Below, one piece after another: positions 3,154 through 62,094 of a stretch of DNA of 64,000 nucleotides (position 1 is its first letter; the number at the start of each line of letters is the position of its first letter). This stretch comes from Pagrus major (taxonomy: Eukaryota; Chordata; Actinopteri; Spariformes; Sparidae). The stretch lies in assembly GCF_040436345.1 (NCBI RefSeq), contig NC_133238.1, forward strand, positions 13,682,147 to 13,746,146, given 5' to 3'. The position numbers and the translations under genes are program-made. The notes under the pieces are model-generated. The model had not been told where the DNA came from. It saw only the letters and a list, made by a program, of their open reading frames with translations, and searched no databases.

Positions 3154-5396
3154 ATGGACTCACTGGCGCCCCCAGGACTCTCTCTGGTTTCTGTCCTGTC
3201 TCTGTTAGCATGTAGCATCCAGGTGTTAGCAGCAGCCCTGCTAACACTCAGGTATGGGGGGCGGAGCTCTGCAGAGGACAGGTGGATTCTACTGTGGCTC
3301 TTCTATGATGTCATCGTCCACCTGACGCTGGTATGACCAATCAGTATGTCAGTTTCATATGTCTTTGTCTTCACTCAGTTATGATTTGGATGTTTTGTCA
3401 TTGTTTTTGTTTGTTTGTCGTTTGTCCTCAGGAGGGTTCGTTAGTCTACATGTCTCTGGTTGTTTATTGTTTGTCGTTTGTCCTCAGGAGGGTCCATTTG
3501 TCTACATGTCTCTGGTTGTTTATTGTTTGTCGTTTGTCCTCAGGAGGGTCCGTTTGTCTACATGTCTCTGGTTGTTTATTGTTTGTCCTCAGGAAGGTCT
3601 GTATGTCTACATGTCTCTGGTTGTTTATTGTTTGTTGTTTGTCCTCAGGAGGGTCTGTATGTCTACATGTCTCTGGTTGTTTATTGTTTGTCCTCAGGAG
3701 GGTCCGTTTGTCTATATGTCTCTGGTTGTTTATTGTTTATTGTTTGTCCTCAGGAGGGTCCCTTTGTCTACATGTCTCTGGTTGTTTATTGTTTGTTGTT
3801 TGTCCTCAGGAGGGTCCGTTTGTCTACATGTCTCTGGTTGGGACGGTGGAGACGTCGGAGGGTCCGCTGGCTGAACTCTGTGAGTATTTCTACTCTCTGA
3901 TACTTTGTTCTATACTACACAGTACATCATTAAAGAAGGACATGTTGTACTTTTATTGCACTACATTAATCTGACAGACAGCTGCAGATATTTTAACTGC
4001 CTCTTCCACTACCTGTCTCTCTGCCTGTCTGTCTGTCTGTCCACCTGTCTGTCTGTGTCTCTCCACCTGTCTGTCTGTGTCTCCACCCGTCTGTCTGTGT
4101 CTCCACCTGTCTGTCTGTCTGTCTGTAGGGAGGGAGTACGGTAAAGCTGACAGTCGTTGGCTGATTTCTGATCCAACGATCGTTTCCATCGAGATTCTGA
4201 CCGTCGTCCTCGACTCTCTGCTCGCTCTGCTGCTCATACACGCAGTACTGAAGGACAAGTACTACAGGTAATACTGAAGGACAGGTACTACAGGTAATAC
4301 TGAAGGACAGGTAATACAGGTAATACTGAAGGACAAGTACTACAGGTAATACTGAAGGACAGGTACTACAGGTAATACTGAAGGACAAGTACTACAGGTA
4401 ATACTGAAGGACAGGTACTACAGGTAATACAGAAGGACAGGTTATACAGGTAATACTGAAGGACATGTACTACAGGTAATACTGAAGGACAGGTACTACA
4501 GGTAATACTGAAGGACAGGTAATACAGGTAATACTGAAGGACAGGTACTACAGGTAATACTGAAGGACAAGTACTACAGGTAATACTGAAGGACAGGTAC
4601 TACAGGTAATACTGAAGGACAAGTACTACAGGTAATACTGAAGGACAAGTACTACAGGTAATACTGAAGGACAGGTACTACAGGTAATACTGAAGGACAG
4701 GTTATACAAGTAATACTCAGTGACAGGTACTACAGGTAATTGTTTGTTTACAGACACGTCCTGTGTTGTTTGTTTGTTTACAGACACTTCCTGTATTGTT
4801 TGTTTGTTTACAGACACTTCCTGTATTGTTTGTTGTTTGTTTACAGACTCTTGCTGTATTCCTTTGTTGTTTGTTTGTTTGTTTACAGACACTTCCTGTA
4901 TTCCTTTGTCATTTGTTTGTTTGTTTACAGACACTTCCTGTATTGTTTGTTGTTTGTTTACAGACACTTCCTGTATTGTTTGTTGTTTGTTTACAGACAC
5001 TTGCTGTATTCCTTTGTTGTTTGTTTGTTTGTTTACAGACACTTCCTGTATTGTTTGTTGTTTGTTTACAGACACTTCCTGTATTGTTTGTTGTTTGTTT
5101 ACAGACACTTCCTGTATTGCTTTGTCATTTGTTTGTTTGTTTATAGACACTTGCTGCAGGTGGCTTTGAGCGTGTGTGAGCTGTACGGTGGCTGGATGAC
5201 CTTCTGTCCTGATTGGCTGATAGGCAGTCCTCACCTGGACACGTCCAGCCGGCTCCACCTGTGGGTCTACCTGGTCTTCTTTAATGGGCTCTGGGTCCTG
5301 GTCCCGGTTCTGCTGCTGATCCAGTCCTGGCTCTCTCTGAGGAGACTGCACGCACTGAGACCAGACGACCACAACGTAAACAGGAAGAAGATGTAA
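3154..5396 (+). CDS. ebpl: Emopamil-binding-protein-like, EXPERA-domain ER membrane protein
   Basis: Four exons (3154-3330, 3810-3879, 4129-4267, 5147-5396) join in phase to 211 residues; human EBPL is of similar size. Key conserved blocks are [20 protein letters not shown] across the exon 1/2 join, [11 protein letters not shown] at the start of exon 3, [20 protein letters not shown], and [10 protein letters not shown] with [10 protein letters not shown] in exon 4. It has about four to five hydrophobic membrane segments and a basic C-terminus ending NRKKM. EBP itself is a sterol delta8-delta7 isomerase of the ER; the EBPL family is related but not known to be an active isomerase. ARL11-like lies next to it as in human 13q14, supporting orthology. 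Introns 1 and 3 are filled by arrays made of the flanking splice junctions. Confidence 0.93.
3412..3809 (+). repeat. Acceptor-derived minisatellite in ebpl intron 1
   Basis: The unit of about 56 bp (48-50 bp variants) holds a T-rich tract, the acceptor TTTGTCCTCAG and the first 27 or so bases of exon 2 (GAGGGTCCGTTTGTCTACAT and on to CTGGTTG). CCTCAGGA recurs at about 3426, 3482, 3538, 3586, 3642, 3692, 3748 and 3804. The last copy is the real exon 2 acceptor. Confidence 0.95.
4013..4128 (+). repeat. CTGT-rich repeat in ebpl intron 2
   Basis: CTGTCTGT runs alternate with copies of CCACCTGTCTGTCTGTGTCT. The array supplies the polypyrimidine tract of the exon 3 acceptor at 4127-4128. Confidence 0.85.
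4262..4735 (+). repeat. Donor-derived 26-bp minisatellite in ebpl intron 3
   Basis: About 18 copies of a 26-bp unit combine the end of exon 3 (CTGAAGGACAAGTACTACAG) with its donor GTAATA. The first member is the true exon end at 4267; the others sit in the intron and each recreates CAG|GTAATA. Confidence 0.95.
4737..5146 (+). repeat. Acceptor-derived minisatellite in ebpl intron 3
   Basis: About 12 copies, 27-43 bp apart, carry TGTTTGTTTACAG followed by ACACTTCCTGTATT. The last copy is the real acceptor (TTTATAG at 5146) with exon 4 beginning ACACTTGCTG. It abuts the donor-derived array, so the whole intron is two junction arrays back to back. Confidence 0.95.
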
Positions 5397-5945
5397 ACTG
5401 ATTGACTGACCGCCTATCAATCAGCGTTATTGATCCTGTCATGTCTACACTGATTGGTGGACATTCAAAGGGGCGGTTCAGTGACAGAAACCACTGTGAT
5501 TGATCAATGTATTGATCTCTGAACTGAAATGAACATTACAACTCATCAGTGATCAATTTTGTCTCCTGATGACTGAAATCTGACGTCCTCGTCTTCAGTT
5601 CAACACCTCAACTCAAAGTCCTGACACCTTCTCCATCAACAAGTGAAAACATTTAATCCACTTTCAGATTCATTTATTCATCAGAACAAACAGGCTGACT
5701 GTTACCAGGCAGATGTTAAAATACTGCACTCTGATTCGCTGAAAAAACAACAACAATGTTTTACTGCAATTTTAAAGAGTTGAACCAGAAGAAAATCCAT
5801 GAAACAAACCTTTAACCCTCCTCAGAGTTCAATTATCAAACAGCACAAATTCACATCTTTAAGATTTATTATTCAATCTGTACAGGCCGTCACTCAGGAT
5901 TAATAATTAATAATTAAAGTCCTCCTCCTCCTCCTCCTCCTCCTC
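5397..5945. other. Convergent 3' region between ebpl and arl11-like
   Basis: No coding sequence is seen. TTTATT at 5865-5870 is an AATAAA signal for the minus-strand GTPase gene. A (TCC)n run lies at 5921-5945, abutting its stop codon. Confidence 0.5.
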
Positions 5946-60800: not shown

Positions 60801-60860
60801 TGTTTCCTGTTCAAGTATGAAACATTTCAGTCAGTCAGGACTCTGAGGAGGAGGCGGACT

Positions 60861-62094
60861 TTAGACCAACCAAAAGTCATAACAAAAACTAACGTTTAGA
60901 GAAAGTTTGGATTCTATCAGAAGCTGTGAACCACAGGGATCAGGTCTGGAGGGATCAGGTCTGAGGGGATCAGGTCTGGAGGGATCAGGTCTGAGGGGAT
61001 CAGGTCTGAGGGGATCAGGTCTGGAGGGATCAGGTCTGGAAGGATCAGGTCTGGAGGGATCAGGTCTAAAGGGATCAGGTCTGGAGGGATCAGGTCTGAG
61101 GGGATCAGGTCTGAGGGGATCAGGTCTGGAAGGATCAGGTCTGGAGGGATCAGGTCTGGAAGGATCAGGTCTGGAGGGATCAGGTCTGGAGGGATCAGGT
61201 CTAAAGGGATCAGGTCTGGAAGGATCAGGTCTGGAGGGATCAGGTCTGGAAGGATCAGGTCTGGAAGGATCAGGTCTGGAGGGATCAGGTCTGGAAGGAT
61301 CAGGTCTAAAGGGATCAGGTCTGGAAGGATCAGGTCTGGAGGGATCAGGTCTAAAGGGATCAGGTCTGGAAGGATCAGGTCTGGAGGGATCAGGTCTAAA
61401 GGGATCAGGTGTGGGTTTCTGAACTCACCGGAGTCATCTTCAGGTCCAGCAGCAGCTCATCAAAGCAGGGAAACTCTTTAGACCAACCAAAAGTCATAAC
61501 AAAAACTAACGTTTAGAGAAAGTTTGGATTCTATCAGAAGCTGTGAACCACAGGGATCAGGTCTGGAGGGATCAGGTCTGAGGGGATCAGGTCTGGAGGG
61601 ATCAGGTCTGAGGGGATCAGGTCTGAGGGGATCAGGTCTGGAGGGATCAGGTCTGGAAGGATCAGGTCTGGAGGGATCAGGTCTAAAGGGATCAGGTCTG
61701 GAGGGATCAGGTCTGAGGGGATCAGGTCTGAGGGGATCAGGTCTGGAAGGATCAGGTCTGGAGGGATCAGGTCTGGAAGGATCAGGTCTGGAGGGATCAG
61801 GTCTGGAGGGATCAGGTCTAAAGGGATCAGGTCTGGAAGGATCAGGTCTGGAGGGATCAGGTCTGGAAGGATCAGGTCTGGAAGGATCAGGTCTGGAGGG
61901 ATCAGGTCTGGAAGGATCAGGTCTAAAGGGATCAGGTCTGGAAGGATCAGGTCTGGAGGGATCAGGTCTAAAGGGATCAGGTCTGGAAGGATCAGGTCTG
62001 GAGGGATCAGGTCTAAAGGGATCAGGTGTGGGTTTCTGAACTCACCGGAGTCATCTTCAGGTCCAGCAGCAGCTCATCAAAGCAGGGAAACTCG
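60861..62094. repeat. 617-bp direct tandem duplication over the iqca1 exon 2 donor
   Basis: 60861-61477 and 61478-62094 appear identical. Each has TTTAGACCAACCAAAAGTCA, about 31 units of a 15-bp minisatellite (GGATCAGGTCTGGAG, GGGG and AAAG variants in the same order), then the last 49 bp of iqca1 exon 2 with its donor. Only the second copy is joined to the rest of exon 2 (62046-62373). Confidence 0.95.

Follow-up and report, generated by a model that had tools for sequence, protein, structure and literature searches.

Introduction

Tandem duplications of exon-intron boundaries, termed mirages, are known from the Adh3, globin, TnC and PGBD5 genes of the lancelet (Branchiostoma), where they are described as minisatellite-like and length-variable, with units of about 10 to 160 bp, and as leaving splicing apparently undisturbed (PMC3087553, PMC3902484). 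Here we describe arrays that contain splice junctions in a stretch of 64,000 nt of the genome of the sparid fish Pagrus major (contig NC_133238.1, positions 13,682,147 to 13,746,146), called the window throughout, which contains ebpl, eef1b2, dytn, snx9 and iqca1 together with ARF-like, zdbf2-like and CD59/Ly6-like genes. As in the lancelet, boundary copies stand in tandem at donors or acceptors, the minisatellite-like units are of comparable size, and splice signals are kept in many of the decoys. Unlike the lancelet cases, those of the window belong to a teleost, fall on ten junctions in six genes within 64 kb, reach about 35 copies and include one intron made purely of a donor mirage and an acceptor mirage. 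The anatomical features of a mirage were all found (a unit that spans the boundary, donor as well as acceptor cases, GT or AG kept), the likeness being drawn from the DNA of one assembly. The literature matches listed, as judged from titles and abstract openings, contained no teleost mirage; among them the name was met for lancelet genes only, and the present case is from a vertebrate.

Other systems share part of this anatomy. The human IFI6 (6-16) gene, in work attributed to Turri in 1995, reportedly contains a minisatellite with multiple splice donors and gives an interferon-induced transcript; it resembles the arrays described here in offering many splice donors and differs in being a single human gene that is not known to belong to a wider pattern. 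In human segmental-duplication genes, repeats with units of about 30 bp and about 4 copies on average lie in some cases at exon-intron boundaries, and are tied to new or alternative introns (PMC2812944), whereas in the window existing introns flanked by arrays have grown and no new intron is shown. Tandem duplication of AGGT is a proposed route of intron gain (the Rogers model), and a potato case crosses an intron-exon boundary (PMC4974935). This model, which the initial annotation of the window gave as background, also has a tandem duplication carry splice signals; it explains the birth of introns, which is not shown here, and the lancelet mirages are the closer match. Within the Sparidae, the growth hormone (GH) gene has polymorphic minisatellites in introns 1 and 3, and in MSTN-2 a length-polymorphic repeat block occupies the 5' end of the first intron, one allele having a predicted extra acceptor (PMC3045353). 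These minisatellites share their family with the present fish, and the excerpted account of them does not describe exon sequence in the unit.

Arrays and duplications that contain a splice junction

Gene models were built from splice consensus and open frames, and 62 introns were modelled. Tandem Repeats Finder (TRF) returned 122 rows for the window, which were merged by hand to one row per array, giving 43 arrays with a period of at least 10 and a combined length of about 17.6 kb; the exonic row 56977 was dropped, as were rows that re-described short-unit tracts (e.g. 1755, 12789, 38009). Seven of the 43 arrays lie outside the modelled region or are wholly exonic (342, 495, 2130, 19304, 19435, 50693, 62536), leaving 36 for analysis, from which the stretch 50340-51139 (the 3' part of iqca1, with unmodelled exons) was also excluded. 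An exon-blind scan for near-tandem duplications at a lag of 12-800 gave four duplications. Three lie apart from TRF arrays (an eef1b2 acceptor, a zdbf2-like donor and a dytn copy pair 13 nt off a donor), and the fourth, in iqca1, has a TRF array within it.

Seven TRF arrays, four at donors and three at acceptors, take in a splice junction together with 5 exonic nt or more, the actual range being 7 to 31. With three two-copy duplications these make ten junction-bearing arrays or duplications in six genes of one 64 kb window, and both types of boundary are hit. Unit content and copy number were read directly from the DNA:

3411..3840, + strand: ebpl intron 1 acceptor array (TRF), unit of 49-56 bp in about 8 copies, with the end of the intron plus 31 nt of exon 2; the authentic exon 2 start, 3810, is in the last copy
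4246..4740, + strand: ebpl intron 3 donor array (TRF), 26-bp unit (22 nt of the exon 3 end plus GTAA) in 19 copies; the authentic exon 3 end, 4267, is in the first copy
4740..5156, + strand: ebpl intron 3 acceptor array (TRF), acceptor in 12 copies at intervals of 30, 33 or 42 bp, 10 exonic nt; the authentic exon 4 start, 5147, is in the last copy
13737..13813, + strand: eef1b2 intron 1 acceptor duplication (duplication scan), two copies at lag 42, 2 exonic nt, exon start 13812
18899..18980, + strand: zdbf2-like donor duplication (duplication scan), two copies at lag 42, 26 exonic nt, exon end 18924
24299..24715, - strand: dytn intron 12 donor array (TRF), 12-bp unit in about 35 copies, 7 exonic nt, exon end 24709
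25514..25566, - strand: dytn intron 8 donor array (TRF), 14-bp unit in 3.8 copies, 7 exonic nt, exon end 25560
46792..48232, + strand: snx9 intron 16 donor array (TRF), about 35 copies of a unit of about 38-43 bp with 25 nt of the exon 16 end; the authentic exon end is 46816
54519..54989, - strand: iqca1 acceptor array (TRF), 14 copies of 33 bp, 12 exonic nt, exon start 54530
60859..62093, - strand: iqca1 tandem duplication, lag 617, identical at 618/618 positions, exon end 62046 (48 exonic nt; array distances and some of the chance tests were computed with 62047), with a nested 15-bp array

The ten items named by the initial annotation were thus all recovered, seven as TRF arrays and three as two-copy duplications. 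Were its phrase on both ends taken to cover ebpl intron 1 as well as intron 3, it would fail in part, since intron 1 has an array at the acceptor end only. In a detail to correct, the eef1b2 unit takes in the exon edge by only 2 nt. Copy number ranges from 2 to about 35. Further arrays and one duplication lie on the intron side of a donor:

14310..14337, + strand: eef1b2 intron 4, 14 bp x 2, begins 6 nt off the donor edge
20499..21041, + strand: zdbf2-like, 27-bp unit, begins 10 nt off the donor edge
24887..24955, - strand: dytn exon 11, two-copy duplication, lag 41, ends 13 nt off the donor edge
26637..26893, - strand: dytn exon 3 (intron 3), degenerate 15-bp unit, begins 9 nt off the donor edge
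40506..41792, + strand: snx9 exon 3, 21-bp unit, begins 20 nt off the donor edge
43266..43441, + strand: snx9 exon 7, 10-bp unit, begins 20 nt off the donor edge
43616..43820, + strand: snx9 exon 8, 18-bp unit, begins 26 nt off the donor edge
46482..46654, + strand: snx9 exon 15, 17-bp unit, begins 4 nt off the donor edge
53602..54021, - strand: iqca1 intron 9, 11-bp unit, begins 16 nt off the donor edge
within 60859..62093, - strand: the 15-bp array nested in the iqca1 duplication, begins 15 nt off the donor edge

A start 3-20 bp past the donor had been claimed for five of these; it stands for the zdbf2-like array and those of snx9 introns 3, 7 and 15, while the snx9 intron 8 array begins too far in, at 26 nt. 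The arrays of eef1b2 intron 4, dytn intron 3 and iqca1 intron 9 and the nested iqca1 array are additional to that list. The claim that arrays lengthen introns was borne out: the summed length of the 62 modelled introns is 32,203 nt and falls to 18,376 nt once TRF arrays are collapsed to one unit.

In ebpl intron 3 the donor array directly adjoins the acceptor array, and the two fill all 879 nt, leaving no intron sequence outside the arrays from which its age could be read. The second full codon of exon 4 is TTG (Leu) in the authentic exon, whereas the 11 decoys of the acceptor array have TTC (Phe) in eight cases, TTG in two and GTC in one. Among eight EBPL relatives the residue is Trp in Sparus, Acanthopagrus and the protein P0002, and Phe in five non-sparids. 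Because Phe is found in most decoys and in five relatives, the acceptor array may preserve older exon sequence; a parallel change inside the array is a possible alternative.

Decoy splice sites and the copy that is used

Decoy GT dinucleotides were scored with a donor matrix derived from the 62 modelled introns and counted when they scored higher than the lowest tenth of real donors. The ebpl intron 3 donor array contains 30 decoys, of which 18 match or exceed the authentic donor in strength; the corresponding numbers are 64 and 26 for snx9 intron 16 and 25 and 13 for dytn intron 12. At acceptors, 10 of the 11 decoys in ebpl intron 3 equal or exceed the authentic site, and only 1 of 7 in ebpl intron 1 is as strong. 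The initial annotation was therefore correct that the arrays multiply decoy splice sites. By column-by-column count, the GT is invariant in 17/17 internal units of the ebpl intron 3 donor array, where other columns average 0.97, and the AG is invariant in 13/13 iqca1 acceptor decoys, where other columns average 0.96. In most of these arrays the authentic site and the decoys are inseparable by sequence strength, so position would have to decide between them.

Intact decoys, which have not been purged, were counted directly in these arrays, and the agreement of relatives' proteins with the exon-proximal site was likewise observed. No insert is present at the ebpl junctions in EBPL of 8/8 aligned relatives, and the dytn intron 8 junction fits 5/5 aligned DYTN relatives. 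SNX9 and EEF1B2 agree with their human counterparts. Use of the exon-proximal copy in splicing would fit these comparisons, one DYTN model at the intron 12 junction excepted.

The iqca1 gene

The iqca1 (drc11) gene, at 51140-62373, is a pseudogene in the window. At least two frame losses and two stops were found in the modelled exons, and the proteins of the three relatives compared are intact. The end of exon 55262-55169 shows loss of frame and a stop, exon 54217-54037 has lost a stretch together with the frame, and exon 51327-51140 has an in-frame stop. No sparid was named among the 120 of 367 matches listed. Two iqca1 exons matched solved DRC11/IQCA1 chains; a solved-structure search aimed at the choice of the iqca1 acceptor gave 0 matches. 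An acceptor 8 nt further downstream, suggested by the reading frames, was dropped on comparison with relatives. Junction-spanning TRF arrays and those starting at most 26 nt from a donor number 16 together, and 3 of them lie in this gene.

Placement of arrays relative to splice junctions

Under null (a), seeds of the observed unit length were placed uniformly over the collapsed non-exonic sequence of the window, and wholly exonic seeds were discarded. Junction-spanning arrays numbered 7 of 36, compared with 1.94 expected (P=0.002), and nine non-spanning arrays began at most 26 nt from a donor, compared with 2.05 expected (P=0.00014). Arrays near acceptors showed no excess (3 vs 1.99 expected, P=0.32). 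Across 16 settings (iqca1 included or left out; every array or just those with a TRF score of at least 100; four pairs of cut-offs), P was 0.0022-0.034 for spanning arrays, 4e-6 to 0.0033 for donors (spanning or near), at most 0.022 for near-donor arrays only and at least 0.13 for acceptors. Among the 22 non-spanning intronic arrays, nine begin at intronic nt 1-26, where 9.4% are expected (P=9e-5), none in nt 27-52 and three in nt 53-78.

Under null (b), each of 29 intronic arrays was placed uniformly in its own collapsed intron. This null is strict because it takes as given the presence of arrays in short introns, where their density is higher. Junction-spanning arrays were then no rarer than random placement predicts, and showed no significant excess (7 vs 4.53, P=0.13; without iqca1 6 vs 4.21, P=0.21). 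Arrays near a donor numbered 9 vs 5.19 (P=0.047) and donor-touching arrays, spanning and near together, 13 vs 7.46 (P=0.01). The outcome of the chance test depends on the null chosen. A donor-side bias in the window is likely; a general rule by which junctions seed arrays is not shown.

The motif CAGGT was present in 10 of 38 TRF units, against an expectation of 4.1 (P=0.009). Of the 9 non-spanning units near a donor, 3 had it (0.7 expected, P=0.03), and over all 31 non-spanning units the excess was weak (6 vs 3.1, P=0.07). Twenty motif-by-group comparisons were made, so these excesses are nominal, and AGGT-like motifs were not retained as a general seed of arrays. Direct-repeat 6-mer microhomology over 41 junctions was 0.060 just past donors and 0.041-0.047 deeper in, and was also 0.060 at 81-120 nt upstream.

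Origin of the arrays

We consider it probable that these arrays are mirages, that is, ordinary minisatellites whose unit happens to take in an exon edge and a splice site. A short tandem duplication, through slippage or break repair, would start each array; additional copies would land on the intron side, and the exon-proximal copy would be kept in use, leaving the mRNA unaltered. With splicing presumed normal, duplications at junctions would be about as harmless as those internal to introns and might grow, nearly neutrally, to tens of copies. Many new arrays would meet a junction because the introns of the window are short once arrays are removed, and array birth would probably be biased toward the first 26 nt or so past the donor.

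Other readings of this placement differ in the part given to the splice site. Array birth might be blind to splice sites, with short collapsed introns alone bringing arrays into contact with junctions, a possibility to be taken seriously even though we lean against it: it agrees with the lack of a significant spanning excess within introns, with a near-donor count that is unexceptional when iqca1 is left out (7 vs 4.71, P=0.16), with a median collapsed intron of 123 nt and with an array density that is similar (3.1-3.7 per kb) across intron classes below 250 nt, but leaves unexplained the drop to 0.65 per kb in introns above 500 nt, the donor-touching excess within introns, the cluster of nine starts in the first 26 nt with none in the next 26, and the window-wide excesses (P=0.002 for spanning arrays, about 4e-6 for donors). 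The opposite proposal, that donors are genuine hotspots of mutation at which minisatellites arise, for instance by way of DNA structures tied to transcription or splicing, or of AGGT-like microhomology that recurs there, strikes us as rather doubtful. It would account for an excess at donors with none at acceptors and for CAGGT in the units, but the numbers are small and post hoc, the motif is weak over the non-spanning units, and microhomology past donors is only slightly raised. A broader version, in which the sparid 5' splice site is a birthplace of minisatellites, introns are rebuilt from their own ends, and ebpl intron 3 is the end state with an acceptor array that keeps older exon sequence, is in our view unlikely. 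The initial interpretation of junctions as array seeds is accordingly supported in part, by the window-wide excess and the donor-side bias, and not by the spanning arrays within introns or by the acceptors; the underlying observation is confirmed.

Two further explanations concern the arrays themselves. Alternative splicing to decoys could make some arrays a source of coding repeats, which we regard as very unlikely. Each of the 11 acceptor decoys in ebpl intron 3 would insert a multiple of three nucleotides, and the array is open throughout, but the acceptor array of the dead iqca1 is equally in frame (13/13 decoys) and open, so chance can bring this about. Because an open frame is also present in dead iqca1, that of ebpl is no evidence of coding use, and an in-frame open array was rejected as a sign of it. 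Moreover, the frame is kept by only 9 of 30 ebpl intron 3 donor decoys and 1 of 7 ebpl intron 1 acceptor decoys, and the insert is missing from every aligned EBPL relative. That the arrays are an artefact of assembly is extremely improbable: the identity of the two iqca1 copies speaks for it, and this 617-bp duplication could be an assembly error, but the three arrays read unit by unit carry interspersed variants or mixed unit lengths, and the frames are open in seven gene models.

Returning to the reading of the arrays as mirages with a donor-side bias, several points weigh against it. All P values are post hoc, the pattern having been noticed before testing, and one window is one sample. The 26-nt cut-off was chosen after inspection, with the excess also found at 10, 20 and 40 nt under the window-wide null. 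Within introns the donor bias is weaker than window-wide, both near the donor, as given above, and for donor-touching arrays without iqca1 (11 vs 6.81, P=0.03), and microhomology did not account for it at the 41 junctions. At the dytn intron 12 junction, 4 of the 5 DYTN relatives aligned agree and one, the gene model P0242 from Sparus aurata, departs, and relatives' proteins stand in place of RNA from the species as the basis for use of the exon-proximal copy.

Other features of the window

Seven gene models have open frames: ebpl, ARF-like, eef1b2, dytn, snx9, zdbf2-like (880 aa) and CD59-like (117 aa). The ARF-like model is without its first exon, and the dytn frame is open as far as the last modelled exon. 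Pfam matches were obtained to EBP, Arf, EF-1 beta, dystrophin-type EF hands with ZZ, SH3-PX-BAR and AAA; the zdbf2-like and CD59-like labels were assigned by eye from the sequence, as our own judgement. EBPL is 96% identical to that of Sparus aurata and 92% to that of Acanthopagrus schlegelii, and the top matches of DYTN are from Acanthopagrus and Sparus. The last modelled dytn exon (23660-24128) contains a coding minisatellite with a DNTPQSAD-like repeat, in 2 copies here compared with about 4 in Acanthopagrus and about 9 in Sparus aurata. Intron 9 of snx9 apparently uses a GC-AG donor at 44048.

An element resembling a miniature inverted-repeat transposable element is present in three copies (13068-13736, 51907-52374 and 55838-56289, the last inverted). 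Arrays at 48823-49266 and 59336-59863 are reverse-complementary with similar flanks, and were apparently spread by a dispersed element and not born in situ. At 10020-11084 a possible short coding exon of a gene without assignment is followed by an array of 12 copies of 33 bp, whose unit is acceptor-like (TTTTACAG) and which might be a further junction array.

Implications

The window would extend mirages to a vertebrate, as what looks like a dense example of a known and little-studied kind that includes one intron built of mirages alone. Series of near-identical splice sites of which one is authentic offer a natural test bed for spliceosome choice, with position set against sequence. The GH and MSTN-2 minisatellites fit a family-wide tendency in sparids, without proving one. 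The donor bias, if true genome-wide, would link splice sites to DNA instability and would provide a route by which introns lengthen.

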